Of a DNA stretch of 47,592 nt, positions 12,752 to 34,553 are shown one piece after another. Under the pieces are notes generated by a model that did not search any database, was not told the origin of the DNA, and worked only from the letters and a program-made list of their open reading frames with translations. Origin of the DNA: a virus; the IMG/VR virus record IMGVR_UViG_3300021964_000121, positions 1 through 47,592 of that record; one strand, 5' to 3'. The position numbers were made by a program, and so were the translations under genes. The first letter of the stretch is position 1. Every line of letters starts with the position of its first letter.

Positions 12752-13158
12752 GTAAAAACAAACACAATTCTAATCTTGGATCGGAGATTGAAAGATCTGA
12801 TGATAGAATCAATGAAACGGGAGAAGTTTTTACTCCAGTAGAATTGGTTCAATATATCCTGGAACAGTTCCCCAAAGAGATGCTTCAGGATCCTAATTCT
12901 ACTTTCTTGGATAACTCTGCTGGTAACGGCAATTTGTTACTGGCTCTGAAAGAAGTTCTTCTGGAGTATCACTCGGAAGAACATATTGTGAATAATATGC
13001 TCTATGCTGTAGAGTTCATGGAAGATAATCATAAAGAGTTGTGTCAAAGGATCGGTGTTTCGGCAGATCATCCACACTATGTTAATGCTGATGCGTTAGA
13101 ATATCACTATCAATTCAACGGAGCACCAGTACAGATGACGCTGGACCAATTCTTCTAG
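12748..13158 (+). CDS. Standalone SAM-binding domain of a DNA methyltransferase
   Basis: The 136-residue product has the start of a type I/II N6-adenine methyltransferase: GEVFTPVELV (residues 25-34, motif X), FLDNSAGNGNLL (53-64, motif I), an acidic motif II in YAVEFM, and NADALEYHY where motif III falls. It stops just where the catalytic NPPY motif would be expected. Either it is a truncated remnant, or it supplies SAM binding to the upstream NPPY protein, whose own motif I is degenerate. The ATGA overlap supports co-expression. The operator dyad of the next promoter overlaps its 3' end. Confidence 0.7.
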   Translation: MSKNKHNSNLGSEIERSDDRINETGEVFTPVELVQYILEQFPKEMLQDPNSTFLDNSAGNGNLLLALKEVLLEYHSEEHIVNNMLYAVEFMEDNHKELCQRIGVSADHPHYVNADALEYHYQFNGAPVQMTLDQFF

Positions 13159-13199
13159 TGGCACAGAGGGTTCCTTCGGGAATCCCTTTCTGCTATAAT
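13146..13199 (+). promoter_or_regulatory. Cassette promoter: dyad, hairpin, TATAAT
   Basis: The dyad-related 20-mer CCAATTCTTCTAGTGGCACA (13146-13165), then 28 bp, then TATAAT (13194-13199). The gap contains the UUCG-loop hairpin listed separately and no good -35. It drives the helicase gene. Confidence 0.7.
13168..13190 (+). terminator. UUCG-loop terminator inside promoter
   Basis: GGGTTCC (13168-13174), loop TTCG, GGAATCC (13179-13185) with one G-T pair, then CTTTCT. It ends the methyltransferase transcript only a few bases before the -10 of the helicase promoter. Confidence 0.7.
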
Positions 13200-13223
13200 A
13201 GTCCCATACGCGATGAGGAAGTG

Positions 13224-14393
13224 ATGCAACTCCGCCCCCACCAGCAAGATGCTCTGACCGCTATGCTGGCGCACGACAAAGGGCAGGTCATCATCCCCAC
13301 GGGTGGTGGCAAGACCATGTGTATGATTAAAGATTCTCTTGAGTATCTGGATGCCTGTGATCGTGGTATCGTGGTTGTGGTTGCTCCCCGTATTCTGCTT
13401 GCCGAGCAACTCTCTGCCGAGTTCCTTGAGTTTCACACTGATGTTGCCGTGATGCACGTTCACAGCGGTGAGACTCATCACTTCAGCAGCACTCGCCCCG
13501 CTGTGATTCGTCACTGGAGTGAGCAAGCATATCGTAAGCAACTAATCTTTACCACCTATCATTCTCTTCCCCGTCTCATGGAGGCAGAGATTGATGTTGA
13601 TTGCATTTACTTTGATGAAGCGCACAATTCAGTCCAACGTAACTTTTTCCCTGCTACGGAGCACTTCTCTTCTACTGCTACTCGCTGCTATTTCTTCACT
13701 GCTACTCCTAAGCACTCTGTTACTGTTTCCAAACCTGGGATGAATGACCCTGAGGTTTATGGCAACGTAATCTGCAACGTTCCTGCTCCCAAACTGGTGG
13801 AGGAAGGTTACATCCTGCCGCCCAAGGTTGTTGTCAAGCAACTGGACATGGTTCAGGACAAGCAGATGATTGCCGACCGTGATTCTCAGAACCTGCTGGA
13901 CACCATCGATGAGAATTCCTTGGATAAGATTCTCATCTGTGCTCGTTCTACCAAGCAGATTGTCAAACTGCTGAGCGAATCTGACTTCCGTAAGGAACTG
14001 GCGGAGCGTGGTTATTCCTGCATGTATATCACCAGCAAGACTGGTGCCATTATTGATGGGCAGAAGGTCAACCGTGAGGTATTCTTTGACACTCTGAATG
14101 CCTGGGGTAAGGATTCCTCTAAGAAGTTCGTGGTTCTCCATCACAGCATCCTGTCTGAAGGCATCAACGTCAGCGGTCTTGAGGCAGTGCTGTTCATGCG
14201 GAACATGGACTATATCGGTATCTCTCAGAGCATCGGGCGTGTCATCCGCCTAGGAGGCGCTGCAAAGACGTTCGGACTGGTGTGCGTGCCCGTTTACGAT
14301 AAGGTAGGCATCAGCACCGCCAAGAGCGTTCAGGCGGTGGTAGACACCGTTTTCAATCAGGGTTTGCCTGCCGTTTCAGTGGTCCGCCGCTGA
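13224..14393 (+). CDS. SF2 DNA/RNA helicase (DEAH-box)
   Basis: A 389-residue superfamily 2 helicase. RPHQQDAL (Q-like motif) comes at residues 4-11, Walker A PTGGGKT at 25-31, DEAH at 131-134, TATP (motif III) at 159-162, and QSIGRVIR (motif VI) at 335-342. The ATG at 13224 was chosen because the -10 at 13194 lies inside the longer open frame and GAGGA sits just upstream. It is shorter than T4 UvsW and could serve recombination, replication restart or RNA remodelling. Placement after two methyltransferase genes resembles restriction or defence loci, but no nuclease domain is seen in it, so I infer a phage replication or repair role. Confidence 0.85.
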   Translation: MQLRPHQQDALTAMLAHDKGQVIIPTGGGKTMCMIKDSLEYLDACDRGIVVVVAPRILLAEQLSAEFLEFHTDVAVMHVHSGETHHFSSTRPAVIRHWSEQAYRKQLIFTTYHSLPRLMEAEIDVDCIYFDEAHNSVQRNFFPATEHFSSTATRCYFFTATPKHSVTVSKPGMNDPEVYGNVICNVPAPKLVEEGYILPPKVVVKQLDMVQDKQMIADRDSQNLLDTIDENSLDKILICARSTKQIVKLLSESDFRKELAERGYSCMYITSKTGAIIDGQKVNREVFFDTLNAWGKDSSKKFVVLHHSILSEGINVSGLEAVLFMRNMDYIGISQSIGRVIRLGGAAKTFGLVCVPVYDKVGISTAKSVQAVVDTVFNQGLPAVSVVRR

Positions 14394-14438
14394 TACTGGC
14401 ACACTCGCCACAATTCCCTCCCATTTCTCCAGTATAAT
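14384..14438 (+). promoter_or_regulatory. Cassette promoter with GGTAATC leader
   Basis: ATACTGGCACA at the end of the dyad region (14384-14403), 29 bp, then TATAAT (14433-14438). GGTAATCAA begins at 14444, eleven bases from the hexamer start. No terminator hairpin is obvious in this copy. Confidence 0.65.
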
Positions 14439-14463
14439 TACTAGGTAATCAAAGAAAACCACC

Positions 14464-14604
14464 ATGATCTGCGAAGTGAAACTCTACGTTGCTGGTAAAG
14501 TTTTTGTTGAAAAGGTTCATGCCCGTGACTATCAGGATGCTCGTCAAGTTGCCCTTGCTCGTAATCCTAACGCTAAGGTTGTGAGTGTGACTGCTGTTTT
14601 TTGA
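14464..14604 (+). CDS. Small hypothetical protein (46 aa)
   Basis: The product MICEVKLYVAGKVFVEKVHA... has two strands and a helix (RDYQDARQVALARNP), and ends in a strand, as in many small phage regulators, but I cannot name it. It is the first gene after a cassette promoter. Its stop overlaps the next start by one base (TGATG). Confidence 0.65.
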   Translation: MICEVKLYVAGKVFVEKVHARDYQDARQVALARNPNAKVVSVTAVF

Positions 14605-14858
14605 TGGGTAAGTTTCTCAAACCCCACATCGATCGACCTGGTATTCTTGAACCCACACCAGGAGATCCGCAAGGTTTCGTTACAAACGATGGAATGTGGG
14701 CAGCAATTCCCTTTGCTGGCAAGAAAAAAGGGTTTGCAATTATACATAATGGCAAACACGTAGGAGAGTTTAAGACTTACAAACAATCTGTTGACTTTAT
14801 CAAGAAACAGATTAAAATCCAGAAAAAGCAAACGTCAACTCTTGAGGAGTTCCTATGA
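14604..14858 (+). CDS. Hypothetical protein (84 aa)
   Basis: The ATG at 14604 overlaps the previous stop. The sequence has a Gly/Pro-rich N-terminal half, then GFAIIHNGKHVGEFKTYKQS and a Lys-rich C-terminal helix. Function unknown. It overlaps the next gene by 4 bp. Confidence 0.65.
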   Translation: MGKFLKPHIDRPGILEPTPGDPQGFVTNDGMWAAIPFAGKKKGFAIIHNGKHVGEFKTYKQSVDFIKKQIKIQKKQTSTLEEFL

Positions 14859-15034
14859 CTGATAAACACGAAAAGCGCCGTGATGCACTTGGTCTGTTTT
14901 ATGAAAGTGTTCTCAAACCAGATTCAGAATTGCGGCAATGTGCTCACAATCAGCAGTGTTTTCATGAGTTGATGGAATGGCGAGAAGAAATCATTAGGTA
15001 TTTGGATGAGCGTAGGAACCAGGAGTTTCACTGA
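14855..15034 (+). CDS. Hypothetical helical protein (59 aa)
   Basis: An ATGA-overlap gene with a charged, helix-rich product containing two cysteines (RQCAHNQQCFHELMEW). No known motif. It shares one base with the next start (TGATG). Confidence 0.65.
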   Translation: MTDKHEKRRDALGLFYESVLKPDSELRQCAHNQQCFHELMEWREEIIRYLDERRNQEFH

Positions 15035-15279
15035 TGGACTCCCACTACATAATATTCTCACTGTTCGCAGTGGCAGCGTATTTCATCGTAACTGATGAGA
15101 GCGTTGCCGCTGCGTTTTTTTATGTCACAAAGTTAGTAAAAGCATACACACAACGCCAGTGGTGGTGGTTTTTACACAATCCACGCAATCCTGTGGTAAA
15201 ATATCTCATATACCGTCGTTCTCTTAAACTGGCAGAAGAGATGATGGCAAAAATAAATACAGATAAAGAGAAAGAATAG
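15034..15279 (+). CDS. Small membrane protein (81 aa)
   Basis: The N-terminus (YIIFSLFAVAAYFIV, residues 5-19) is a membrane helix or signal anchor; a second moderately hydrophobic stretch (SVAAAFFYVTKLV) follows. The C-terminal part is basic, then acidic. It sits in a tightly overlapping run of small genes. Probable inner-membrane or thylakoid-associated peptide; function unknown. Confidence 0.65.
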   Translation: MDSHYIIFSLFAVAAYFIVTDESVAAAFFYVTKLVKAYTQRQWWWFLHNPRNPVVKYLIYRRSLKLAEEMMAKINTDKEKE

Positions 15280-15280
15280 T

Positions 15281-15598
15281 ATGCTTTCTACACAATACAG
15301 ACTTAGACTTGAGTTCATTTGTAAGTGTATTGCGAATGGAGAAGAAGTCAAACTTGAGGATATGATCTGGGCAGAAAAACTTGGTAAAGCAAATACCACT
15401 GCCAGAGAAATGCTCAAGAAAGCAAGAGGACGTGCTGCCAATCCTGATATGGTAGAAGGTAGTATGGACGATTTTATGAATAAGATGGGATTGGGTGACC
15501 CTGACCCATCAAATCATCGCACTGGTTTTGGTAGTGCTGATGAGATTGTAGACTGGTTTAATGAAGACCGCCCTGACGATTGGAGGCAACGTGACTGA
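15281..15598 (+). CDS. Conserved-type cyanophage hypothetical protein (105 aa)
   Basis: The sequence starts with helices (YRLRLEFICKCIANGEEVKLED) and ends in an acidic, Asp/Gly-rich tail. I recall similar proteins in T4-like cyanophage small-gene clusters, but no function is known to me. It overlaps the next gene by 8 bp. Confidence 0.65.
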   Translation: MLSTQYRLRLEFICKCIANGEEVKLEDMIWAEKLGKANTTAREMLKKARGRAANPDMVEGSMDDFMNKMGLGDPDPSNHRTGFGSADEIVDWFNEDRPDDWRQRD

Positions 15599-15821
15599 GG
15601 TTGATTATCAAGTTATTGATAAAGATGGAAAAGTCCATAACTATATCTGGGATGACAAACAGAGTAAAATGGTAGAAGGTAAAAGGGAAAAGAGTGTTCC
15701 CTGGTGGAGACTTCATCAAATTGCGAAAGAATTGGGTGGTGAAATAAACAGTTATATCATTCAAGATAGTCGTGGTAATGTCACCAGAAAAATCTCAATC
15801 GAATACAAGGAGGAAGAATGA
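15591..15821 (+). CDS. Hypothetical protein, GTG start (76 aa)
   Basis: GTG at 15591 is preferred over an ATG at 15561 because GGAGG stands five bases ahead of it and it reduces the overlap with the upstream gene. The product (VTEVDYQVIDKDGKVHNYIW...) is a small mixed alpha-beta protein. Function unknown. Confidence 0.6.
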   Translation: MTEVDYQVIDKDGKVHNYIWDDKQSKMVEGKREKSVPWWRLHQIAKELGGEINSYIIQDSRGNVTRKISIEYKEEE

Positions 15822-16054
15822 CCGCAGTAATCTATTCTAACGGAAGTCAAGAATGTGAGAGAATGACATCTCTCTTGAAGACCCTTGGTGGTGAGTTCCT
15901 TGAATATAAACTAGGTGAACATTTCACTCAAAGGGGATTTGAAGCAGAGTTTGGTAAAGATGCCGAATACCCGCAAATCAACATTGGGTTTAGGCACATT
16001 GGTAGTATGAAAGAAACTCTCAACTTTATGAAAGAGCAGGGAATGTTTGTATGA
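15818..16054 (+). CDS. Glutaredoxin-like protein
   Basis: The 78-residue protein has a glutaredoxin layout: strand TAVIYSN, the active-site region GSQEC, a helix, then YPQINIG with the cis-proline loop, then HIG and a final helix. The usual CPxC is reduced to a single Cys13, a form I associate with cyanophage glutaredoxins. A single cysteine could still support monothiol chemistry or protein partnering, for example around ribonucleotide reductase; that role is inferred. It is joined to both neighbours by ATGA overlaps. Confidence 0.75.
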   Translation: MTAVIYSNGSQECERMTSLLKTLGGEFLEYKLGEHFTQRGFEAEFGKDAEYPQINIGFRHIGSMKETLNFMKEQGMFV

Positions 16055-16251
16055 CTTACGATGAGTTTGTTAGTAAGAACCCAGAATACTACATGGATAT
16101 GGTGCGTCTTATTGATATCAAACTCAAACATCGTATGGAGTTGACTGAGGAAGAGAAAGAAATAAATGGTTACATTGTAGAAGTTCAGGAAAGAAATAAG
16201 ATAAATGAATTAAGAAACAAATTCCAAAAGTGTTGGGAGATAGATGAATGA
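16051..16251 (+). CDS. Hypothetical helical protein (66 aa)
   Basis: A charged all-helical product (DEFVSKNPEYYMDMVRLIDIKL..., then EEEKEINGYIVEVQ). It overlaps both neighbours by 4 bp. No recognisable motif. Confidence 0.6.
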   Translation: MTYDEFVSKNPEYYMDMVRLIDIKLKHRMELTEEEKEINGYIVEVQERNKINELRNKFQKCWEIDE

Positions 16252-16457
16252 ACCCAATAATCCTAATCGGTTGCTTCACACCATTGGCGTTGATTTGGAT
16301 TATTATGAAATTAAGTGTGTGGATTGCTGCTGTCAACGAAGAGCAAACTTATGTCAGAGAAGAATCACTCAAACCACACGGACCCTATGTGGCAGATGCA
16401 TATGCAGACGTTGATGAAGAGGAAGAGGAATATGGAAGTAAAACAGATTATAGATGA
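16248..16457 (+). CDS. Single-pass membrane protein (69 aa)
   Basis: Residues 3-28 (PIILIGCFTPLALIWIIMKL and following) form one membrane helix, followed by an acidic cytoplasm-like tail with a run of Glu. It resembles other one-pass peptides in this cluster. Function unknown. Confidence 0.65.
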   Translation: MNPIILIGCFTPLALIWIIMKLSVWIAAVNEEQTYVREESLKPHGPYVADAYADVDEEEEEYGSKTDYR

Positions 16458-16578
16458 TGCCCTGTTTGAGTGGTATTCTGAACGTGGTTTAGAAGTTCCA
16501 CAATGGCAGATGCAGCGGAATCCAGAGTGGTGGATAAGTTATCTTAATGATTTGGGTATTGACCCACAGAACCCATAG
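16432..16578 (+). CDS. Hypothetical protein (48 aa)
   Basis: The ATG at 16432 has GAGGAA upstream; longer in-frame starts overlap the membrane-protein gene too far. The product contains EVPQWQMQRNPEWWISYLND, a tryptophan-rich helix. Its 3' end contains the -35 of the next promoter. Confidence 0.55.
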   Translation: MEVKQIIDDALFEWYSERGLEVPQWQMQRNPEWWISYLNDLGIDPQNP

Positions 16579-16587
16579 TGCTATAAT
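16559..16587 (+). promoter_or_regulatory. Sigma-70 promoter within the small-gene run
   Basis: TTGACC (16559-16564), 17-bp spacer, TATAAT (16582-16587). Unlike the cassette promoters it has a near-perfect -35 and no upstream dyad. Confidence 0.8.
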
Positions 16588-16609
16588 ACCTGCATAGAAA
16601 CACCTTATT

Positions 16610-16801
16610 ATGGACTACCGACCCTATTCACCAGAGTGGCACAGGAAACGCTACCTGAAAGAAGCGTTGGATAAGTATTTTGATGATTATGTCGATACGG
16701 ATGTGATTCGTGCTGACATTCTGGATATTCTTTCGGAGCGTTCTGAACAAGCATATGCAGAATTTACCCGTATCAATAAACTTGAACAGTCGTTTCAATG
16801 A
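16610..16801 (+). CDS. Hypothetical protein (63 aa)
   Basis: First gene after the 16.56-kb promoter. Product MDYRPYSPEWHRKRYLKEAL... is helical and charged. No motif recognised. It overlaps the next gene by 4 bp. Confidence 0.65.
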   Translation: MDYRPYSPEWHRKRYLKEALDKYFDDYVDTDVIRADILDILSERSEQAYAEFTRINKLEQSFQ

Positions 16802-17010
16802 CACAACTTATTTCTCCTGACGATCCTCAATACTTTGAGCAATCATCGTATGAGTCTTATGATCGACATAACTACAAGATTGTATCAAAAACTGGTGAGA
16901 GTGTTGTAGTTGACAACTGGGAAACTGCACAACTAACTTGGTTTCAAAAAAACGGATTTCTATCACATATTGAAGTGTTAGATAAAAAGGAAGTAAAAGG
17001 ATTCAAATGA
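16798..17010 (+). CDS. Hypothetical protein (70 aa)
   Basis: The first part is disordered-looking (SPDDPQYFEQSSYES), followed by a small domain NYKIVSKTGESVVVDNWETA. Function unknown. ATGACA overlap with the upstream gene. Confidence 0.6.
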   Translation: MTQLISPDDPQYFEQSSYESYDRHNYKIVSKTGESVVVDNWETAQLTWFQKNGFLSHIEVLDKKEVKGFK

Positions 17011-17016
17011 TTAGTA

Positions 17017-17481: not shown

Positions 17482-17482
17482 T

Positions 17483-17593
17483 GTGATTATGTTGGGGTTG
17501 TTTTTTCTGGCAACTATTGGTATAATCATATTTGGATACATACACGGTGATATGCATTTTGCCAAAGTATTGGAGACCCTAAAAAATGACTAA
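17483..17593 (+). CDS. Tiny single-pass membrane peptide
   Basis: With GTG at 17483 the peptide is 36 residues: one membrane helix (MLGLFFLATIGIIIFGYI) followed by a short charged tail. An in-frame ATG at 17369 would give 74 residues but would overlap the preceding gene by 113 bp. Start uncertain; function unknown. Confidence 0.5.
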   Translation: MIMLGLFFLATIGIIIFGYIHGDMHFAKVLETLKND

Positions 17594-20241: not shown

Positions 20242-20469
20242 ATGGAAAGTATCGAAAAGCATATTGAAAAGGATAAAGAAATCCTTCAAGACCCAACAAC
20301 CTCCCCACAACAACGTCGTCACATCGAAGGTGAATTAGAAGAACTGGAAGCATACGCAGAAAATCACAAAAAAGAGATTGCAGCAGGTGACCATCACGAT
20401 CCCTCTCCACTTGAACTCTATTGTGATGCCAATCCTGAAGCACCAGAGTGTTTAGTTTACGATGATTGA
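20242..20469 (+). CDS. cp12: CP12-like Calvin-cycle inhibitor
   Basis: This 75-residue protein ends in the CP12 signature: LELYCDANPEAPECLVYDD, with the C-terminal cysteine pair at 61 and 70. In cyanobacteria CP12 bridges GAPDH and phosphoribulokinase under oxidising conditions and shuts down carbon fixation. Phage copies are thought to redirect carbon to the pentose phosphate pathway and nucleotide synthesis. The N-terminal cysteine pair of plant CP12 is absent; the first 50 residues are a charged helix-turn-helix. It is the last gene before a strong terminator. This is the clearest marker that the host is a cyanobacterium. Confidence 0.92.
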   Translation: MESIEKHIEKDKEILQDPTTSPQQRRHIEGELEELEAYAENHKKEIAAGDHHDPSPLELYCDANPEAPECLVYDD

Positions 20470-20470
20470 A

Positions 20471-20525
20471 CCAGTTTGATAAGTGGCACACGGGGCGGCA
20501 ACGCCCCTTTTTTATGCTCTATAAT
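20471..20525 (+). promoter_or_regulatory. Cassette promoter ahead of nuclease-methylase pair
   Basis: CCAGTTTGATAAGTGGCACA (20471-20490), 29 bp, TATAAT (20520-20525), and AGTAATCGA starting eleven bases from the hexamer start. The -35 region is occupied by a terminator hairpin. Confidence 0.75.
20492..20513 (+). terminator. Intrinsic terminator after cp12, inside next promoter
   Basis: GGGGCG, loop GCAA (GNRA type), CGCCCC, then TTTTTT. A textbook terminator whose T run ends six bases before the -10 of the following gene. Confidence 0.9.
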
Positions 20526-20548: not shown

Positions 20549-20953
20549 ATGTCCAGAGACACCACCACTGGAACCAACTATGAAACTGAGGTTGAAAATC
20601 TTCTAGAAAGTTATAGTGACCATTCTGTTAGATCTCAGGTAATGGTTGGTAAAAAACGTAATGGTGGTAAACACTATGTTGATATACTTTTGAATGATAA
20701 TGAGTTGATTAGTTTGAAGTATCAGCGAGTTCAGGGTACTGCAGAAGAGAAGATTCCGTTTGAGTTTATGAAACTCCAACATGCTATTGATGACCATGGA
20801 TATAAATCTGCAACCATTGTTCTAGCAGGACCAGATAAAGCATGGAAATGGAAAGACTACTATCTTTCTGAAGAGTTTCGTGCTAAAATGTCCAGTATCT
20901 ACCCTGACGTTCGTATCATCACCCACGAACAGTTTGTTTCGGAGTATCTTTGA
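20549..20953 (+). CDS. PD-(D/E)XK-type nuclease
   Basis: The 134-residue product has the layout of a small restriction-type nuclease: an N-terminal acidic helix (NYETEVENLLE), then KHYVDILL with Asp45, then LISLKYQ with Lys57, followed by GTAEEKIPFEFMKLQHAI, a block I associate with type II endonuclease-like proteins. The usual second acidic residue (E/D-x-K) is Ser55 here, so the acid may come from elsewhere. It is linked by TGATG to a Dam-type methylase, which looks like a compact restriction-modification pair or a host-DNA degradation enzyme with phage protection. Target unknown. Confidence 0.65.
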   Translation: MSRDTTTGTNYETEVENLLESYSDHSVRSQVMVGKKRNGGKHYVDILLNDNELISLKYQRVQGTAEEKIPFEFMKLQHAIDDHGYKSATIVLAGPDKAWKWKDYYLSEEFRAKMSSIYPDVRIITHEQFVSEYL

Positions 20954-21459
20954 TGACCTCAACTGCACTAAAAGCACTGACTGCTACTACTGGCAATCGT
21001 ACTGATTGTTGGAATACTCCAGTGGAATTTGTTGGGGATGTTGTTAAGTTTTTTGGTGGAGAGATTGATACTGACCCGTGTTGTAATGATGTTGATAATC
21101 CTAATGTACCCGCAAAGACACTCTATACCGAAGAGACAAATGGTTTAGCACATCCATGGATGGGTAAGGTTTTTATGAATCACCCATATTCTAATAGTAA
21201 AGAGTGGGTGCCCTATGCTGCACACCAATACGAATGTGGAAATGCCGAAGAAATGGTTCTTCTAATCAAATTGGACGTTTCTACAAAATGGTGGAACTCT
21301 GTGGCAAAATATCCTTGGATTGCCGTCAACAAACGTCTAAAGTTCGGTTCTGGTAAAGGTGCGGCACCATTTCAATCTGCCATTGTATATCTTGGTAAGG
21401 ATATTGAGCGATTCAAGAGTGTATTTGGTAAGTACGGGCAACTCTATGCACCAGTTTGA
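20953..21459 (+). CDS. Phage Dam-type N6-adenine methyltransferase
   Basis: The 168-residue product matches the phage N-6-adenine methylase pattern: CWNTPVEFV start, IDTDPCC, then ETNGLAHPWMGKVFMNHPYS and later SAIVYLG. The catalytic motif, normally DPPY or NPPY, is NHPY at 76-79, a substitution in the active site that may alter or abolish activity. The ATG at 20953 overlaps the upstream nuclease stop (TGATG). Possible roles: protecting phage DNA from its own partner nuclease or from the host. Confidence 0.8.
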   Translation: MTSTALKALTATTGNRTDCWNTPVEFVGDVVKFFGGEIDTDPCCNDVDNPNVPAKTLYTEETNGLAHPWMGKVFMNHPYSNSKEWVPYAAHQYECGNAEEMVLLIKLDVSTKWWNSVAKYPWIAVNKRLKFGSGKGAAPFQSAIVYLGKDIERFKSVFGKYGQLYAPV

Positions 21460-21505
21460 GAACTGGACCACGGGGCGGAAACGCCCCTTTTTCATGCCCT
21501 ATAAT
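21451..21505 (+). promoter_or_regulatory. Cassette promoter with perfect dyad
   Basis: CCAGTT-TGAG-AACTGG (21451-21466) is a perfect dyad, then ACCA, 29 bp, TATAAT (21500-21505). GGTAATCGA starts at 21511. Confidence 0.8.
21472..21492 (+). terminator. Intrinsic terminator after Dam gene, inside promoter
   Basis: GGGGCG, loop GAAA (GNRA), CGCCCC, TTTTT. It closely resembles the 20492 terminator, so the whole cassette may be a duplication. Confidence 0.9.
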
Positions 21506-21530: not shown

Positions 21531-21944
21531 ATGGCAACTCGTGCTCGCATCGGTCTTGAACTCTCTGATGGTTCTGTGCTCTCCGTTTATCACCACTATG
21601 ATGGTTATCCTGAGTGGTTGGGTCGCATCCTGAAGACTCATTACAACGGAAAGTCTCCTGCTTCCGAACTGATTGACGGTGGTGATATGTCCTGCTGCTG
21701 GACTGATGACCGCTGGGATGACACTGGTGTGGTGGGAGTTTATGGTCCTCAATACTACTCTCAGCGTGGAGAAAATACTCCTCCTCGCCTTGATAATAAC
21801 CTTGGAGAATATCTACTCAAAGGTATTGGTGAGGAGTATCATTACATCTTCCGCGATGGTGAATGGGTGTGCTATAATATGCACGAATTTGATAACAAAC
21901 AACCCGAAGTTGCTGAAATCCCCACTGGAGCACTTGCAGTTTAA
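21531..21944 (+). CDS. Conserved phage hypothetical protein (137 aa)
   Basis: The start MATRARIGLELSDGSVLSVY followed by HHYDGYPEWLGRIL is the hallmark of a hypothetical family I recall in many phages and bacteria, with a conserved aromatic DGYPE turn. The rest includes SELIDGGDMSCCW and a C-terminal DGEWV strand. No activity is known to me. It has its own cassette promoter and GGTAATCGA leader. Confidence 0.75.
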   Translation: MATRARIGLELSDGSVLSVYHHYDGYPEWLGRILKTHYNGKSPASELIDGGDMSCCWTDDRWDDTGVVGVYGPQYYSQRGENTPPRLDNNLGEYLLKGIGEEYHYIFRDGEWVCYNMHEFDNKQPEVAEIPTGALAV

Positions 21945-21945
21945 T

Positions 21946-22000
21946 CCAGTTGAACAAGTGGCACAGGGCACCGTGACAGGTGCCTAGGATGCCCTATAAT
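21946..22000 (+). promoter_or_regulatory. Cassette promoter with partial -35
   Basis: CCAGTTGAACAAGTGGCACA (21946-21965), 29 bp, TATAAT (21995-22000). GTGACA (21973-21978) could act as -35 with a 16-bp spacer; it forms the loop of the hairpin GGCACC/GGTGCC (21967-21984). Confidence 0.75.
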
Positions 22001-22021: not shown

Positions 22022-22420
22022 ATGACTTCCACCTTCGCTGACTACTGCGCCACTCAAGACGCCAGGAACACCATCCAACTGAATGTTCGTAAGTGGACTC
22101 TGATGCTGTGTGATGCCCTTGTGGATAACTTCAAGTCCCGTAATCACGGCAAAGTCGGTGGTTACGATGCTCCTGTGTATAAGTTCTATCCTGAAGAAGG
22201 ACGTAAGTATTTCAAAATCATTATGGAGATTCCTAATGAGAACCGTGATCCTTCCCGTAGTGTTCACGCTTTCGTAGATAAGAAGACTGGTGAAGTGTAT
22301 AAGTCTGCTTCCTGGAAGTCTCCTGCCAAAGGTGTTCGTTATGACCTGCGACTGATTGAGCAGCGTGAATGGTTGCTGGAAAATGCAGATTGGGCAGGAG
22401 GTTACTTGTATGCCAAGTAA
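22022..22420 (+). CDS. Conserved cyanophage hypothetical protein (132 aa)
   Basis: ATG 22022 is the first in-frame start after the mapped -10. The product ends with HAFVDKKTGEVYKSASWKSP then KGVRYDL, which I recall from cyanophages; a protein-folding or DNA-associated role is possible but not shown. The C-terminal WAGGYLYAK overlaps the next gene. Confidence 0.75.
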   Translation: MTSTFADYCATQDARNTIQLNVRKWTLMLCDALVDNFKSRNHGKVGGYDAPVYKFYPEEGRKYFKIIMEIPNENRDPSRSVHAFVDKKTGEVYKSASWKSPAKGVRYDLRLIEQREWLLENADWAGGYLYAK

Positions 22421-22668: not shown

Positions 22669-23145
22669 ATGTCTTACATCATTGCTTCTGGATACGGTTA
22701 TTCTAAAATCCTATGTGAGAGTGTTGCCTCTTGGTTTGTAAATGAGTTCTTTCCACGACACAAACTTACAATTGATATTGTGCATCGTGGTCTGAAACGT
22801 GAAGGAGTTCATGGGTATTGTGATGTTGTGGGTGATACTCAACGCCCACGACATTTTCTTATAGAACTTGACACTTACATGGACAAGGAGTTGTATGTAA
22901 AAACTCTTTTTCATGAACTGACCCACATGGCACAGTGGATACGTGGTTCGCTGCGGCACCGTTATGGAAAATTGTGTTATTGTAAAACACCAGTGGAAAA
23001 TTGGGAGTATTGGTATCAACCACATGAAATTGAGGCACGGGAAGAGGAAGAAAGGTTATATGAATGGTACTTAATTGACAAACAGGGTGTGCCAGCTGGA
23101 GAGGTGGCACCCTTCTTCCCGAATCGCCTGAGGCAGGCAGTATAA
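22669..23145 (+). CDS. Zinc metallopeptidase-like protein (HExxH)
   Basis: A 158-residue protein with HELTH at 82-86, the zinc-binding and catalytic motif of gluzincin or SprT-like peptidases, in the context LFHELTHMAQW. A CYC pair follows, and then the acidic helix PHEIEAREEEERLYEWYL, which may provide the third zinc ligand. It starts at ATG 22669. Its 3' end contains the next cassette operator. Possible processing of phage or host protein; substrate unknown. Confidence 0.7.
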   Translation: MSYIIASGYGYSKILCESVASWFVNEFFPRHKLTIDIVHRGLKREGVHGYCDVVGDTQRPRHFLIELDTYMDKELYVKTLFHELTHMAQWIRGSLRHRYGKLCYCKTPVENWEYWYQPHEIEAREEEERLYEWYLIDKQGVPAGEVAPFFPNRLRQAV

Positions 23146-23146
23146 T
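23092..23146 (+). promoter_or_regulatory. Cassette promoter within metallopeptidase 3' end
   Basis: CCAGCTGGAGAGGTGGCACC (23092-23111), 29 bp, TATAAT (23141-23146), then GGTAATCGA at 23152. This copy is fully embedded in coding sequence up to 23145. Confidence 0.7.
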
Positions 23147-23169: not shown

Positions 23170-23409
23170 ATGCAACTCCTGAACGCCGCCAAGCAAATTG
23201 ATTACTATCCCGTTTCCAGTGGCAAGCGTTTTGTTCGCCGTGTGACCTGGCATCCTGGATGTGAGCGGACTCAGATGGTTACCTTTGCCACCATCACCAA
23301 ATCCGATATGGTTTATGATGTGAATCAGTACATTGCAAACGGTGCCACGGTGACTGACTTCAACCTGGAAGCATATGCTGGTTCTGATTATTCTCCGATG
23401 GCGTGCTGA
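23170..23409 (+). CDS. Hypothetical protein (79 aa)
   Basis: Product MQLLNAAKQIDYYPVSSGKR... with an arginine-rich strand (FVRRVTW) and a C-terminal NLEAYAGSDYSPMAC. I recall similar cyanophage proteins but no role. It has its own promoter with GGTAATCGA leader. Confidence 0.65.
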   Translation: MQLLNAAKQIDYYPVSSGKRFVRRVTWHPGCERTQMVTFATITKSDMVYDVNQYIANGATVTDFNLEAYAGSDYSPMAC

Positions 23410-23448: not shown

Positions 23449-23739
23449 ATGCACTTCCAACATTCCAAAGAAACTGCTGTTCCTACTATGTCCTCCGCAC
23501 AATTTTCTGGCGTGTTCCTGACTGTTGAAAATCACGGTTGCATTTATACTATTTGCACCGAGGGTGAATTGTTCTATGCTCCAATGTATCAGAACGGAAC
23601 TGTGAACTTCGAAGAGTTTGATATGGTAGATTTCTGGGAATCCGATGTTGATGCAGAAGAACTGGAGGAGATTCAGGCAGCACTGATTGATATGATGCAG
23701 CGTGCTGGACTGTACTTTAAGCAACCCATGACAGTGTGA
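23449..23739 (+). CDS. Hypothetical protein (96 aa)
   Basis: Beta-rich first half (FSGVFLTVENHGCIYTICTE) and a helical second half (DAEELEEIQAALIDMMQRA). An in-frame Met14 is an alternative start. Function unknown. Confidence 0.6.
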   Translation: MHFQHSKETAVPTMSSAQFSGVFLTVENHGCIYTICTEGELFYAPMYQNGTVNFEEFDMVDFWESDVDAEELEEIQAALIDMMQRAGLYFKQPMTV

Positions 23740-23785
23740 GAAGTGGCACAGGGCACCTGGAAACGCTCTCTGGGTGCTCTATAAT
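23731..23785 (+). promoter_or_regulatory. Cassette promoter for 46-aa gene
   Basis: ACAGTGTGAGAAGTGGCACA (23731-23750), 29 bp, TATAAT (23780-23785). The gap forms the hairpin GGGCACC/GGTGCTC (23751-23757 with 23773-23779). Confidence 0.7.
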
Positions 23786-23818: not shown

Positions 23819-23959
23819 ATGTTCACTAAGGAAGACCATGAGTTTATTGACTTTCTGTTCGGTAAACTCACCTGTCTCACTGATACTGAGATGATTGATT
23901 TGCAGGATGATGATACCTGCTGTGACCACATTCTTTTCACTCAACTGGAACTTTTTTAA
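23819..23959 (+). CDS. Hypothetical protein (46 aa)
   Basis: The ATG at 23819 follows the promoter. The product is acidic and helical (KEDHEFIDFLFGKLTCLT...), with a vicinal Cys pair (DTCCDH). It overlaps the next start. Confidence 0.55.
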   Translation: MFTKEDHEFIDFLFGKLTCLTDTEMIDLQDDDTCCDHILFTQLELF

Positions 23960-28366: not shown

Positions 28367-28371
28367 CGATG

Positions 28372-28379
28372 TATAAATT
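28372..28379 (+). promoter_or_regulatory. Late-type promoter TATAAATT
   Basis: Seven of eight bases match T4 late TATAAATA. It lies just after the adhesin stop and 28 bp before the next ATG, a spacing close to that at gp25. Confidence 0.4.
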
Positions 28380-28406
28380 ATTATGATAGAATGAATTGAA
28401 AAAATC

Positions 28407-29521: not shown

Positions 29522-29522
29522 A

Positions 29523-30251: not shown

Positions 30252-30342
30252 TAGTAGTGTATACTATTATTAATGTATTGTATATATCTTATAGTGTACT
30301 GTATATTATCATTTTTCTCAAGACTCCGGCAAATTCTTTATG

Positions 30343-30395
30343 ATTCTCAATAAGTAGTCGCTAATTGATAATAAATAAGTGGTTTTATTGAGAAT
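30343..30395. repeat. Inverted repeat ATTCTCAATAA / TTATTGAGAAT
   Basis: Arms 30343-30353 and 30385-30395 are perfect 11-bp inverted copies around a 31-nt centre. The same arms recur tightly spaced at 31161-31189 and in shortened form at 31464-31493. Confidence 0.6.
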
Positions 30396-30424
30396 AATAC
30401 CCTATAATACTCTCTAATACCTTC

Positions 30425-30488
30425 TAAAGCACCGTATCTTTATATTACCTTTTAATACCTCATAAAGTACTCATAAAGCACCGTGTCT
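30425..30488. repeat. Direct repeat TAAAGCACCGT(A/G)TCT
   Basis: Copies at 30425-30439 and 30474-30488, each preceded by TAATACCT some bases upstream. Function unknown. Confidence 0.5.
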
Positions 30489-30582
30489 GATGCAACCTTT
30501 GCCTGCGGATTATAACACGAGCGCCCATAAAAGTCAAGGGGCACGGCAGAAATTTCCCTGGTCCCACACAAATTTTATGAGA

Positions 30583-30803
30583 ATCTCGACGAGAATGTGT
30601 GCATAATGACATAATCTCGACGAGAATACATATATATTATTATGCATCTCGACGAGAATCAGGCATTATAGGGACTTGCGATCTCGACGAGAATACAGTA
30701 TAATCATATAGAATCATACAAAATCTCGACGAGAATTATGTACGACGACTACGATCTCGACTATTCATTCACACAAGATTACACATACGATCTCGACGAG
30801 ATG
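30583..30803. repeat. Array of 14-bp dyad ATCTCGACGAGAAT
   Basis: Exact copies start at 30583, 30614, 30646, 30681 and 30723; variants start at 30754 (ATCTCGACTATT) and 30790 (ATCTCGACGAGATG). Steps are 31, 32, 35, 42, 31 and 36 bp. The core TCTCG-A-CGAGA is a dyad. One copy lies between -35 and -10 of the 30.7-kb promoter, the next between that -10 and the ATG, and the last two are within the coding sequence. It looks like a protein-binding array or an iteron set. Confidence 0.75.
30676..30704 (+). promoter_or_regulatory. Promoter overlapped by a 14-bp dyad
   Basis: TTGCGA (30676-30681), 17-bp spacer, TATAAT (30699-30704). The fourth ATCTCGACGAGAAT copy (30681-30694) fills most of the spacer, so a bound protein would block or modify it. 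Confidence 0.6.
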
Positions 30804-30917
30804 TATGAATCATATATGCAATCATATGCACTAGACACACTAGATGCAGATGACGATGATGATTATGCACGAGATAATGACACATACGAGACGCTTGCAT
30901 ATCGGCACTACGCGTGA
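30738..30917 (+). CDS. Acidic Asp/Tyr-rich small protein (59 aa)
   Basis: The product MYDDYDLDYSFTQDYTYDLD... is extremely rich in Asp and Tyr, with a run of five Asp. Two of the 14-bp elements fall inside it and encode the repeated DLD. Strong negative charge is typical of DNA-mimic or inhibitor peptides, but that role is inference. It has no recognised homologue. The ATG follows the fifth dyad by one base. Confidence 0.55.
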   Translation: MYDDYDLDYSFTQDYTYDLDEMYESYMQSYALDTLDADDDDDYARDNDTYETLAYRHYA

Positions 30918-30923
30918 TATAAT
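30895..30923 (+). promoter_or_regulatory. Promoter for 54-aa gene
   Basis: TTGCAT (30895-30900), 17 bp, TATAAT (30918-30923), directly after the stop of the acidic gene. Confidence 0.55.
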
Positions 30924-30946
30924 CATACATATCGCACACGAGAGTC

Positions 30947-31111
30947 ATGCCCGCACACATGGTTGCACAGAAACGCCTGGTACGTGTCACACTAGACATC
31001 ATGTGTTATGATGACCTAGAACTAGAAGCATTAGACTGGAAAGAACTTCTAGAACTAGAAGGAGACGAAGAAATCGATATTAGCATCAAAGATTACTCAG
31101 ATATCTTTTAG
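30947..31111 (+). CDS. Small conserved-type protein (54 aa)
   Basis: The part KRLVRVTLDIMCYDDLELEA, followed by DWKELLELEGDEEIDISIKD, is a beta-alpha-beta peptide that I recall from cyanophages and cyanobacteria, with the conserved LDWK and LEGDE. A second ATG at 30959 is possible. Function unknown. Confidence 0.65.
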   Translation: MPAHMVAQKRLVRVTLDIMCYDDLELEALDWKELLELEGDEEIDISIKDYSDIF

Positions 31112-31114
31112 TGT

Positions 31115-31223
31115 GCCAGTACGACAATTGGCACGTTATCGAGATTATAATTAATATTTCATTCTCAATAATACTTTCTTATTGAGAATGGCAGCTGCCC
31201 CCTGTGCCAATTGTCGTACTGGC
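31115..31223. repeat. Nested inverted repeats (20-bp arms around a hairpin)
   Basis: Arm GCCAGTACGACAATTGGCAC (31115-31134) is exactly inverted at 31204-31223. Inside it lies a perfect 11-bp hairpin ATTCTCAATAA/TTATTGAGAAT (31161-31171, 31179-31189) with a 7-nt loop. A TATAAT occurs at 31146-31151. Large cruciform or RNA fold possible. Confidence 0.75.
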
Positions 31224-31267
31224 GCCAGGGGGTTTACGTATGGCGCGGAATGCCCTAATGTGTACAC

Positions 31268-31456
31268 ATGGTCAAAAACAACTCCGATTTGTTCTACTCT
31301 GCCCTTCAATCTCTGCCCCAGTTCGTTATGGAAACCGATGCCGATTGGGGCATGGTTTATGACTACATGGAATCCCAATGTGGTGATTTAAAAGATTATC
31401 ACTGGGAGGAAGTTGCCGAAGTGTATAAAGAATTCATGAACGATTCTAGATACTAA
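31268..31456 (+). CDS. Hypothetical protein (62 aa)
   Basis: Product MVKNNSDLFYSALQSLPQFV... is acidic and helical. The leader contains a weak promoter-like TTTACG-N17-TAATGT (31233-31261). Function unknown. Confidence 0.6.
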   Translation: MVKNNSDLFYSALQSLPQFVMETDADWGMVYDYMESQCGDLKDYHWEEVAEVYKEFMNDSRY

Positions 31457-31463
31457 CCGTTCT

Positions 31464-31493
31464 GATTCTCAAGTATTTTTATTATTGAGAATC
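31464..31493. repeat. Hairpin GATTCTCAA / TTGAGAATC
   Basis: Nine-base arms around a 12-nt A/T-rich loop, just after the previous gene. It is the third member of the ATTCTCAA inverted-repeat family and could also act as a weak terminator. Confidence 0.55.
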
Positions 31494-31586
31494 GCGGCTG
31501 ACCCTGTGCCAATGTTGGAACTGCACACCAAACCGCCACAGGGCACCAATTTCGTGTATTGTATTCAAGTGTTCGGGAATTGACCC

Positions 31587-31721
31587 ATGTTTGATGAACT
31601 CTGGTCCGAGATTGCTGATGCTCCTGGTGAAATCTTCGATGTCATTGAGTACAAAGAAGAATGGGAGAAAGATGACAAGTTTGATGTAGAAGGTTACATC
31701 AAAGGAAACACTGATTACTGA
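31587..31721 (+). CDS. Acidic small protein (44 aa)
   Basis: Product MFDELWSEIADAPGEIFDVI... is acidic. A TATTGT at 31557-31562 may be its -10. Function unknown. Confidence 0.55.
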   Translation: MFDELWSEIADAPGEIFDVIEYKEEWEKDDKFDVEGYIKGNTDY

Positions 31722-31741
31722 TACATTCTTAACTGAAACTC

Positions 31742-31915
31742 ATGAACCGTTCTGAACTGCAAGACGCTCTCATTCAGCAGATGTTGGATGACATGGACCT
31801 CAAGACGATGACGTGTCTTTGTTATGATTATCTGGATGAGGGTTATGATAAGTATTCGGATGCAGAGTTGACTGAAGAGTGTAAAGAATACTACCCCGAA
31901 TTGTTGGAGGAGTGA
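31742..31915 (+). CDS. Hypothetical protein (57 aa)
   Basis: Helical and acidic (MNRSELQDALIQQMLDDMDL), with two cysteines in TCLCYDY. No motif recognised. Confidence 0.55.
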   Translation: MNRSELQDALIQQMLDDMDLKTMTCLCYDYLDEGYDKYSDAELTEECKEYYPELLEE

Positions 31916-31926
31916 TACAAACCGTT

Positions 31927-31947
31927 CGGGAGTTCTTTATACTCCCG
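31927..31947 (+). terminator. Hairpin CGGGAGT / ACTCCCG
   Basis: A 7-bp perfect stem with loop TCTTTAT, after the 57-residue gene and before a cassette operator. There is no T run after it, so termination strength is uncertain. Confidence 0.45.
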
Positions 31948-31960
31948 TTCAGCTGCCCGA

Positions 31961-32017
31961 CCAGTTGGGAGAGTGGCACACTAGGGGTCGTGTTCGTGGT
32001 GACCCCGTGCCTATAAT
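31961..32017 (+). promoter_or_regulatory. Cassette promoter with TTCAGTTC leader
   Basis: CCAGTTGGGAGAGTGGCACA (31961-31980), 31 bp, TATAAT (32012-32017); TTCAGTTC begins nine bases from the hexamer start. The gap folds as GGGGTC/GACCCC (31984-31989 with 32001-32006). Confidence 0.75.
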
Positions 32018-32039
32018 GACTTCAGTTCGAAACGACCGC

Positions 32040-32276
32040 ATGACTGCCTACGCTTTCTACCGTGTTGAACTTGACCGCGCCGATGGTACGACTGCCGTTG
32101 AATTCCGCAAGCGTCGCAAGGCAACGACTGCCAAGGGCATGGATCGCCAGCACAACAACGTGGTCAACGCCGTCATTGAGGAGATTCGTTACTATCGGAT
32201 CGAAGGGTGGAAGCGCCTGACCGTGACCCGTGTGCCAGCGAGCGAAGTGACCGCTCCCTATGCTCGACTGGGGTGA
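32040..32276 (+). CDS. Hypothetical basic protein (78 aa)
   Basis: First ATG after the promoter. Product MTAYAFYRVELDRADGTTAV... is basic (EFRKRRKATTAKG) and beta-rich, perhaps nucleic-acid binding. GC-rich coding sequence unlike the structural genes. No Shine-Dalgarno. Confidence 0.6.
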   Translation: MTAYAFYRVELDRADGTTAVEFRKRRKATTAKGMDRQHNNVVNAVIEEIRYYRIEGWKRLTVTRVPASEVTAPYARLG

Positions 32277-32290
32277 CCCGTGCCTATAAT
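32235..32290 (+). promoter_or_regulatory. Cassette promoter, degenerate dyad
   Basis: CCAGCGAGCGAAGTGACCGC (32235-32254), 30 bp, TATAAT (32285-32290); leader TGAAGTTC at the same nine-base offset. It lies within the 3' end of the preceding gene. Confidence 0.6.
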
Positions 32291-32312
32291 GACTGAAGTT
32301 CAAACAAACCCC

Positions 32313-32504
32313 ATGCGTTACGAAATCCTGGTTCCCTCCGCAATGTATGACAGCGAGTCCGTGCTGGACCTGGACCGTGCCTACGACATCATGTACGACC
32401 TGGCAGAGGAGCACGGTTACGCTGAGATCCGCCGTGATGGCATGGTCATCGCTGACCGTTTCAGTGATACCATCAACGCCATTGCCGACTGCGTGTTCGG
32501 GTGA
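32313..32504 (+). CDS. Hypothetical protein (63 aa)
   Basis: ATG 32313 follows the promoter. The product MRYEILVPSAMYDSESVLDL... has a beta-alpha-beta layout, then GYAEIRRDGMVIADRF, resembling small conserved phage proteins. Function unknown. Confidence 0.6.
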   Translation: MRYEILVPSAMYDSESVLDLDRAYDIMYDLAEEHGYAEIRRDGMVIADRFSDTINAIADCVFG

Positions 32505-32558
32505 CCAGTTGGGGTAGTGTCACACATTTTTGGCACTGCCCCCAAAATGCCCTATTGT
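32505..32558 (+). promoter_or_regulatory. Cassette promoter with -35 and variant -10
   Basis: CCAGTTGGGGTAGTGTCACA (32505-32524), 28 bp, TATTGT (32553-32558). TTGGCA (32530-32535) gives a 17-bp spacer. TTCAGTTC starts at 32562. Confidence 0.7.
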
Positions 32559-32586
32559 AGTTTCAGTTCAAACAACCCCGCTTCTC

Positions 32587-32934
32587 ATGCGTAAGATCGA
32601 ACAGCAAATGAACAACGCCATTTCTAACAACCTGAACTGGCAATGTGACAACACCGCCGTCGCTTACAACCCCGAAACTAACGAGTCGACAGTGTTCCTT
32701 CACGGTAACAAAATCGCCGTGGTTGGTGATGACTTCGTTCAAATCTTTGACGGTGGTTATCAGTCAAAGACCACCAAATCCCGCCTGAATGCTATTCTTT
32801 CGGAGCACGGAATCAAGGGCGAATGTGTATTTCAAAGGAACTTCAATTGGTTTGTTCATAAGTTCATCGGACAGGCAGGAACTTCTCCCGTTTATAATGA
32901 GTTCGAATTTCAAGATGGGTTCATGTTTGCATAA
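32587..32934 (+). CDS. Conserved phage hypothetical protein (115 aa)
   Basis: The product contains STVFLHGNKIAVVGDDFVQI, then KTTKSRLNAILSEHG and VFQRNFNWFV, a pattern I recall from many phage hypothetical proteins. Beta-rich then helical. Function unknown. It is followed by a strong terminator. Confidence 0.7.
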   Translation: MRKIEQQMNNAISNNLNWQCDNTAVAYNPETNESTVFLHGNKIAVVGDDFVQIFDGGYQSKTTKSRLNAILSEHGIKGECVFQRNFNWFVHKFIGQAGTSPVYNEFEFQDGFMFA

Positions 32935-32943
32935 CAAATAGGG

Positions 32944-32966
32944 GGGGCATTCGTGCCCCTTTCTTT
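32944..32966 (+). terminator. UUCG-loop intrinsic terminator
   Basis: GGGGCA, loop TTCG, TGCCCC and then TTTCTTT. Strong stem and T-rich tail. Confidence 0.88.
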
Positions 32967-32973
32967 ATACTCA

Positions 32974-32989
32974 GGTCGGCTGCCCGACC
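32974..32989 (+). repeat. Hairpin GGTCGG / CCGACC in duplicated leader
   Basis: Perfect 6-bp stem with loop CTGC. It belongs to a longer direct repeat shared with 31933-31969 (TTCTTTATACTC and GCTGCCCGACCAGTTGGG), pointing to duplication of the cassette. Confidence 0.6.
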
Positions 32990-33043
32990 AGTTGGGGGAC
33001 TGTCCACTGTGCCCCTGGAATCGCCCCACCCCGTGCCTATAAT
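32988..33043 (+). promoter_or_regulatory. Cassette promoter giving a nearly leaderless mRNA
   Basis: CCAGTTGGGGGACTGTCCAC (32988-33007), 30 bp, TATAAT (33038-33043). The ATG at 33050 lies seven bases after the hexamer, about where transcription should begin. Confidence 0.7.
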
Positions 33044-33049
33044 AGGACC

Positions 33050-33967
33050 ATGCAAAACAAACACATCGAACACCCCGAAGACACCATCCTGACGGGTGAC
33101 CTGAATGCCCTGGATTGGTTCGAAGCACGTGGTCACCTAAGCGTGAAGATTGACGGTGCTCCCGCTGTAGTTTGGGGACGCAATCCTGCCACGGGTAATC
33201 AATTCGTGGGCACCAAAAGTGTCTTCAATAAAGTTAAAATCAAGATTAACGAAACTCATGCGGACATTGACAAGAACCATGTGGGCGAAGTTGCAGAAAT
33301 TCTGCACGCTTGTCTTGATTGGTTGCCTACTACAGACGGCATTTTCCAAGGCGATTTTATCGGATTTGGTGGGTCTGATGAATACCGTCCAAATACAATC
33401 ACCTATAAGTTTCCGACAGTAATTGACCAGAACATCATCATTGCTCCACATACTTACTATGAGGCAAATGATGACCTCCGTGATAGTTGGGCACTGCCTA
33501 TGTTGTTCACCATTACTGACACTGCCTACTGTAAGTTTGTGAAACCCAAGGCACGTATCTTCTCTGGTGATTACATCAACTGTGCTGGTGACTTCGGTGA
33601 CCTTTCCGAACCGATTCAGTTTGCTAGACAAATGGCACAAATGGTCACCTTTGTTGATGAGAAGAAAGCGAAGGAACTTAAGAAGCAATTGAATGCATGT
33701 ATCAGGGAGAATCGCCCTGTAGTTAATGCTGATTTTGATTGTGATCCTAACCTGCTTGGGTTATGGGCACTGGTCAAATCTATCAAAGATGATGCACTCT
33801 ATCTCTGCCGTAATGATGGACCCGAAGCATACATCGGACAGGACAGGATTGACTCCGAAGGTTATGTCTACTCTAATGAGTTTGGCACAATGAAACTGGT
33901 CAATCGTAAGCAGTTCAGTTATGCTAACTTCAACAATGCTAAGTTTAACAAAGAGGTGTGCCAGTGA
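33050..33967 (+). CDS. Ligase-like nucleotidyltransferase (KxDG)
   Basis: The 305-residue protein has the signature of covalent nucleotidyltransferases (DNA/RNA ligases and capping enzymes): motif I KIDG (33-36) in HLSVKIDGAPAVVWG, a motif III-like GIFQGDF (97-103), motif IV EGYVY (270-274) and motif V-like MKLVN (Lys282). In the ligase family the motif I lysine forms the AMP-enzyme intermediate. I recall a related phage family of unknown function (DUF6267-like). A role in RNA repair or nucleic-acid sealing is inferred. The ATG lies at the predicted transcription start. Confidence 0.72.
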   Translation: MQNKHIEHPEDTILTGDLNALDWFEARGHLSVKIDGAPAVVWGRNPATGNQFVGTKSVFNKVKIKINETHADIDKNHVGEVAEILHACLDWLPTTDGIFQGDFIGFGGSDEYRPNTITYKFPTVIDQNIIIAPHTYYEANDDLRDSWALPMLFTITDTAYCKFVKPKARIFSGDYINCAGDFGDLSEPIQFARQMAQMVTFVDEKKAKELKKQLNACIRENRPVVNADFDCDPNLLGLWALVKSIKDDALYLCRNDGPEAYIGQDRIDSEGYVYSNEFGTMKLVNRKQFSYANFNNAKFNKEVCQ

Positions 33968-34016
33968 GCGCACTGTCCACTCATGCCCCCTGGGTGCCAC
34001 TCCGTGCCCCTATAAT
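33961..34016 (+). promoter_or_regulatory. Cassette promoter with TTCAGTTC leader
   Basis: CCAGTGAGCGCACTGTCCAC (33961-33980), 30 bp, TATAAT (34011-34016), TTCAGTTC at 34020. The operator overlaps the stop of the preceding gene. Confidence 0.75.
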
Positions 34017-34044
34017 GACTTCAGTTCAAACGAAACGACAGACC

Positions 34045-34293
34045 ATGAACGGTTGGGCAAACTACGAAACCTGGAATGCCTCCCTGTGGATCGGAAACGA
34101 TGAGTTCCTGTACAACACCGCAAAGGCATGTGTTGAGTTCTGTGCCCCATGGGAGACCCCCTGGACTAAGTTCGTGCGCTGCATGACCGAAGGGCAGATC
34201 GGTCGCCACCTGGAAACCACAGGCGATGGGGTGGCATGGAACGACCCCGCCATCGATGCCCAGGAGATGGAGGAGATGATGGCAGACCTCTGA
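34045..34293 (+). CDS. Conserved hypothetical protein (MNGWANYETWN family, 82 aa)
   Basis: The N-terminus MNGWANYETWNASLWIGND is a strongly conserved signature that I associate with a phage and cyanobacterial family (DUF7249-like). The rest is helical and acidic. Function unknown. The coding sequence is GC-rich. Confidence 0.78.
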   Translation: MNGWANYETWNASLWIGNDEFLYNTAKACVEFCAPWETPWTKFVRCMTEGQIGRHLETTGDGVAWNDPAIDAQEMEEMMADL

Positions 34294-34339
34294 CCCTCTC
34301 CTCCCCCTTTCCTTTCAAACCACAAACCAACATCCTACC

Positions 34340-34507
34340 ATGACCCGCGACCTTGCCACCGCTCTCCTGAACCGTGCCGCTGACGGTGCCCAACTCCTGG
34401 AAATCCTGGACAGCATTGCCGCCGACCTGGAAACCCAGGGCATTGAGGAGTGCGCCGCCCATTATGCTGCCATCTCTGCCCCCACCGCCGAACCTATCCA
34501 GTTCTGA
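34340..34507 (+). CDS. Small conserved-type protein (55 aa)
   Basis: Product MTRDLATALLNRAADGAQLL, then EILDSIAADL; I recall similar short proteins starting MTxDLAxxLL in cyanobacteria and their phages. A 60-base stretch at 34321-34380 is 37/60 G+C. Its last codons contain the next operator. Confidence 0.65.
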   Translation: MTRDLATALLNRAADGAQLLEILDSIAADLETQGIEECAAHYAAISAPTAEPIQF

Positions 34508-34553
34508 TACTGGACACCTTTCCCCCTTCGGGGGTGCCTCCTGCCCCTATAAT
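34498..34553 (+). promoter_or_regulatory. Cassette promoter with perfect half-sites
   Basis: CCAGT-TCTGAT-ACTGG (34498-34513) then ACAC, 30 bp, TATAAT (34548-34553), TTCAGTTC at 34557. The gap has the small hairpin CCCC-TTCG-GGGG (34523-34534). Confidence 0.75.

Follow-up and report, generated by a model that had tools for sequence, protein, structure and literature searches.

The middle promoters of T4 combine a MotA box with a -10 element and work with AsiA, a DNA-bound factor replacing the -35 contact beside an ordinary -10. The PeSL composites of T4-like phages (Arbiol 2010, Comeau 2014; via PMC4503421) are reported to consist of a stem-loop and an early promoter standing together before shuffling small genes. 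In cyanobacterial promoters of the CRP/NtcA type, a two-fold symmetric site lies at a set distance upstream of the -10. According to a 2010 review, neither motA nor asi is present in cyanomyoviruses, and it is unclear how their early and middle transcription work (PMC2984593).

We analysed a 47,592-bp IMG/VR virus fragment (the window, meaning the whole stretch of DNA studied here) from a T4-like cyanophage; among named records, Synechococcus phage S-SKS1 and other cyanomyoviruses come nearest to it. The same 24-bp palindrome, placed about 29 bp ahead of the minimal promoters of many unrelated small genes in marine cyanobacterial viruses, looks like a common switch for an activator protein, probably in use early during infection. 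A first-pass annotation of the window had listed thirteen 20-mers, 28-31 bp before a -10 hexamer, six of them at 29 and four at 30. We recovered all thirteen, and counting the bases between 20-mer and -10 hexamer again gave the same values: 28 bp for the copies starting at 13146 and 32505, 29 bp at 14384, 20471, 21451, 21946, 23092 and 23731, 30 bp at 32235, 32988, 33961 and 34498, and 31 bp at 31961. The hexamer is TATAAT in 12 of the 13 and TATTGT at 32505. These cassettes, a weaker copy missing from that list and a partial palindrome are, with gaps in bp:

13142-13199, plus strand: palindrome 13142-13165, gap 28, TATAAT 13194-13199; ATG of a helicase gene at 13224.
14380-14438, plus strand: palindrome 14380-14403, overlapping the end of the helicase gene, gap 29, TATAAT 14433-14438; ATG at 14464.
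20467-20525, plus strand: palindrome 20467-20490, gap 29, TATAAT 20520-20525; ATG of a PD-(D/E)XK nuclease-like gene at 20549; the spacer has a GGGGCG/CGCCCC hairpin and a T run.
21447-21505, plus strand: palindrome 21447-21470, containing the stop codon of a Dam-like gene, gap 29, TATAAT 21500-21505; ATG at 21531; hairpin in the spacer.
21942-22000, plus strand: palindrome 21942-21965, gap 29, TATAAT 21995-22000; ATG of a DUF7717 gene at 22022.
23088-23146, plus strand: palindrome 23088-23111, gap 29, TATAAT 23141-23146; ATG at 23170.
23727-23785, plus strand: palindrome 23727-23750, with the stop codon of the preceding gene inside it, gap 29, TATAAT 23780-23785; ATG at 23819.
31203-31226, minus strand: partial palindrome, gap 29, TATTAT; it forms an arm of a perfect 20-nt inverted repeat, and its role is uncertain.
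31505-31562, plus strand: weaker copy TGTGCCAATGTTGGAACTGCACAC at 31505-31528, gap 28, TATTGT 31557-31562; ATG at 31588.
31957-32017, plus strand: palindrome 31957-31980, gap 31, TATAAT 32012-32017; ATG at 32040.
32231-32290, plus strand: palindrome 32231-32254 with a degenerate 3' arm, gap 30, TATAAT 32285-32290; ATG at 32313.
32501-32558, plus strand: palindrome 32501-32524, gap 28, TATTGT 32553-32558; ATG at 32587.
32984-33043, plus strand: palindrome 32984-33007, gap 30, TATAAT 33038-33043; ATG at 33050.
33957-34016, plus strand: palindrome 33957-33980, gap 30, TATAAT 34011-34016; ATG at 34045.
34494-34553, plus strand: palindrome 34494-34517, gap 30, TATAAT 34548-34553; ATG at 34578.

The inverted repeat at 31115-31223 (GCCAGTACGACAATTGGCAC / GTGCCAATTGTCGTACTGGC, arms 69 nt apart, the first at 31115-31134) has arms that resemble the palindrome, and it encloses a second inverted repeat, CATTCTCAATAA/TTATTGAGAATG. 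The window also has, at 30583-30814, a stretch with few ORFs and six copies of ATCTCGACGAGA(AT), a 14-bp near-palindrome repeated 31-67 bp apart, possibly an operator or iteron array. Three consecutive tRNA genes, for Ile (tat), Met (cat) and Leu (taa), lie at 682-927; an Rfam search of the window returned tRNAs only.

The element had initially been described as a dyad plus CAC. The dyad is real, and a logo of 170 distinct IMG/VR sites, 112 of them at gap 29, shows that TGTG is conserved upstream of it, so that CAC is not an addition but, with its mirror TGTG, the outer arms of one larger palindrome. The full element spans 24 bp, TGTGMCASTT-N4-AASTGKCACA, and its centre lies about 41.5 bp before the -10. 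It shares with T4 middle promoters the proposed replacement of the -35 contact by a DNA-bound factor beside an ordinary -10. Yet the T4 MotA site is a 9-bp box near -30, whereas the conserved cyanophage site is a 24-bp palindrome that ends 28-31 bp before the -10 and is centred near -53; the cassette has no MotA box at about -30, in agreement with the earlier view that the two are distinct. The cassette resembles the PeSL composites in that a stem-loop may stand with a promoter, probably an early one, ahead of small genes, and the S-PM2 stem-loop at 11369-11391 noted in PMC4503421 falls inside a palindrome cassette at 11347. The difference is that the operator palindrome is the most constant part of the cyanophage cassette, the hairpin being found in only about half of the sites. 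The two-fold symmetric site upstream of the -10 at a set distance recalls CRP/NtcA-type promoters, but the palindrome has another sequence, with 10-bp halves around N4 and a centre near -53, and the 170-site consensus departs from the NtcA core GTA-N8-TAC and the CRP core TGTGA-N6-TCACA in both sequence and half-site spacing.

The spacing is as characteristic as the palindrome. In the window, a two-block score, at a threshold recovering 9 of the 13 listed copies, found nine sites at gaps of 28-31 bp, far above the Markov shuffles (none) and the 11 other spacings (mean 0.2). Across IMG/VR, a scan with the core as first described, its gap deliberately left wide (15-45 bp), found at least 119 loci; the distinct sites among the matches listed fell at gaps of 28 (10 sites), 29 (65), 30 (33) and 31 (7). 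When only the 5' half (TGTGCCAGTT) was used to pick sites, their distances to TATAAT peaked where predicted, three neighbouring bins holding 10, 25 and 6 sites and other bins about 2-3 each; the 3' half AASTGKCACA re-emerged. With the palindrome alone, no -10 being demanded, 23 TATWNT matches lay at +28 to +31 among 68 sites, against 0.6 expected. These three separate scans support the architecture of palindrome plus fixed spacing. Other distances out to 120 were almost empty in IMG/VR, except for a small group at 39-41, about one helical turn farther out, that carries TTGACA. Since these sites look like one promoter family, the argument from helical phase is only suggestive.

One locus with the longer gap (L009, 532-781) and three similar ones (L010, L101 and L113) have a TTGACA/TATAAT promoter with the palindrome ahead of it at gap 40. 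Downstream comes a conserved stretch, ATAAGAGATTYGGGGTARGATCTA, with no evident ORF, and after this stretch a second palindrome promoter. The gap-40 promoter may drive a non-coding RNA, and an Rfam search of L009 gave no match.

Activation usually has this layout, a two-fold symmetric site set at a constant distance ahead of a -10 that mostly lacks a good -35, and we read the palindrome promoters as activator-dependent. Our main reading, to which we give a probability of about 0.78, is that the 13-14 copies make up one regulon, specific to T4-like cyanophages and most likely early, in which a dimeric protein on the palindrome would bring the host RNA polymerase to the -10, the protein itself being likelier phage-encoded. 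A dimeric sequence-specific DNA-binding protein would occupy the 24 bp, whose centre lies about 53 bp before the start site. Polymerase carrying the primary sigma factor would thereby be recruited to a -10 for which a good -35 is mostly lacking. A palindrome beside a promoter would also fit a repressor that closes these genes later in infection. This is improbable, for about 29 bp lie between the site and the -10, it overlaps neither the -35 nor the -10, and the tightly fixed distance and mostly poor -35 are what activation usually looks like. The four promoters previously singled out for a normal -35 and no dyad (244, 11272, 16559 and 35121) indeed show no recognisable palindrome within 60 bp upstream, and the sequence backs a separate promoter class with a dimer-type operator at a fixed distance from the -10. 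The accompanying remark that most copies have no -35 describes a tendency only: the -35 is usually poor, but 36% of 112 sites from the isolates and the window match TTGACA at four or more of six positions (13% in shuffles), and 19 sites match at five or more. The partial TTGACA kept by about a third of the sites suggests that some of these promoters may not need the activator.

In the same isolate and window sites, 48% of the spacers fold at -6 kcal/mol or lower (mean z of -1.5), and 22% have a run of four T. The upstream stop codon is often within the palindrome (for example, at copies 21451 and 23731), or the palindrome comes just after it. A terminator-like hairpin is often nested in the spacer, which would place terminator and promoter in one cassette of about 60 bp. 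These features could instead mean that palindrome and hairpin together form an RNA element, a tandem terminator or processing site that stands before promoters by chance. We consider this very improbable: the distance from palindrome to -10 is the same with or without a hairpin in the spacer, and a hairpin made by the palindrome itself is unlikely because its pair 4/13 is mostly G.G, pairing being feasible there in no more than 19% of the IMG/VR sites and 29% of those in isolates.

Promoter blocks are on average 64% identical between window copies, compared with 37-39% in the flanks, and among the 13 genes preceded by a cassette in the window, the 12 downstream proteins compared have no mutual similarity. 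They include the helicase, the PD-(D/E)XK nuclease and DUF7717; most others are small and uncharacterised. In 12 of 13 window copies, the start codon comes 27-39 nt downstream of the first base of the -10. At copy 32988 the ATG of a 305-aa gene follows the start of the -10 by only 12 nt, roughly at the expected transcription start, and this transcript may for that reason be leaderless. The palindrome layout precedes DUF7717 in 9 of 11 genomes, with diverged spacers; about eight of these reach or exceed the 99th percentile of random stretches. All four copies of TGTATTCTATA in Syn9 carry the palindrome.

The strict palindrome pattern occurs in 14 of 15 cyanomyovirus records, namely the window and 13 isolates: S-SKS1, Syn9, P-SSM2, P-SSM4, S-PM2, P-HM2, P-TIM40, the freshwater S-CRM01, S-RSM4, Bellamy, S-SCSM1, S-RIM32 and Syn1. 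The reversed control pattern gave zero matches in every record tested, and the strict pattern had no match in T4, RB49, KVP40, the pelagiphage HTVC008M, Ma-LMM01, the cyanopodoviruses P-SSP7 and Syn5, or the cyanosiphovirus S-CBS2. The lone non-matching cyanomyovirus, S-TIM5, a phage of Synechococcus WH 8102, has its own altered version, ASTGGCCCA, whose strict pattern was found in no other record tested; near 163.7-171 kb, about six of these variant sites are paired with a -10-like hexamer, the gap being 30 in most of them. A strict scan of 84,980 cellular genomes for the motif plus TATAAT gave 6 scattered matches, none cyanobacterial, where by our own arithmetic chance would give on the order of ten. 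As judged from these records, the class is specific to T4-like cyanophages.

This distribution bears on the origin of the activator. Early genes require a factor present at entry, and the phages might have adopted the site of a picocyanobacterial transcription factor, which could turn these genes on without any phage protein. Among conserved phage proteins we also found no universal DNA-binding candidate, which fits a host factor too. Against it stand the lack of cyanobacterial matches in the strict cellular scan and the use of a different operator by S-TIM5 in WH 8102, and we regard a host activator as unlikely. Because there is no cellular enrichment and the operator is changed in S-TIM5, a phage-encoded regulator is favoured, and we think it probable that the activator is of phage origin. 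Should the class be early, the first transcripts would precede any newly made phage protein, and the factor needed at entry would more readily be a host or virion protein; a phage-encoded activator would have to be made at once or carried in the virion. More tentatively, and at somewhat less than even odds, we envisage a phage-encoded activator of an unrecognised family, perhaps virion-delivered or immediate-early, with a regulon common to T4-like cyanophages, an operator specificity that switched in the S-TIM5 lineage and a terminator between operator and -10.

Among conserved phage proteins, we found no small family with a recognisable DNA-binding domain that is in all carriers and missing from non-carriers. 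The "transcriptional regulator" phrog_385 (Syn9 gp230) was rejected as the activator: it has no recognised DNA-binding domain, and a diverged copy is present in HTVC008M, which lacks the motif. DUF7717, gp136, gp58, gp96 and gp187 were set aside as well, each being absent from some carrier or without recognisable DNA-binding features. A sigma-54 reading of TGGCAC was discarded by eye from the sequence, as no second element lies at the right spacing.

The sites cluster in small-gene regions, at 46-53 kb in Syn9, 49-55 kb in P-TIM40 and 2-23 kb in S-PM2. Those of Syn9 include sites near 46.3, 48.6, 51.0 and 53.0 kb, with TATTCT as the hexamer. From transcriptomes of Syn9 and P-TIM40, Doron et al. 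in 2016 reportedly described a novel element that controls early genes and is conserved among T4-like cyanophages, middle genes having host-like promoters. The palindrome cassette is found in the small-gene region of both. We consider it likely that it is that early element, a match made on phages, gene region and conservation rather than on the letters of the motif. The first-pass annotation had proposed a middle-type regulon; given that the sites cluster among small uncharacterised genes and that the novel element is said to belong to early genes, we find no support for this label, and the class most likely drives early genes rather than middle ones. If the two elements are identical, the window probably adds a further member to that class, and the full architecture (the 24-bp extent and the nested hairpin), the distribution and the S-TIM5 variant may be what our analysis adds, unless already published.

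With a precise operator, a fixed spacing and a known distribution, it becomes testable how early and middle transcription are ordered in T4-like cyanophages, which have neither MotA nor AsiA. The activator could be fished for with the 24-bp palindrome as bait, and the specificity change that occurs naturally in S-TIM5 could serve to confirm it. The motif also flags genes of the regulon in metagenomic phage contigs.
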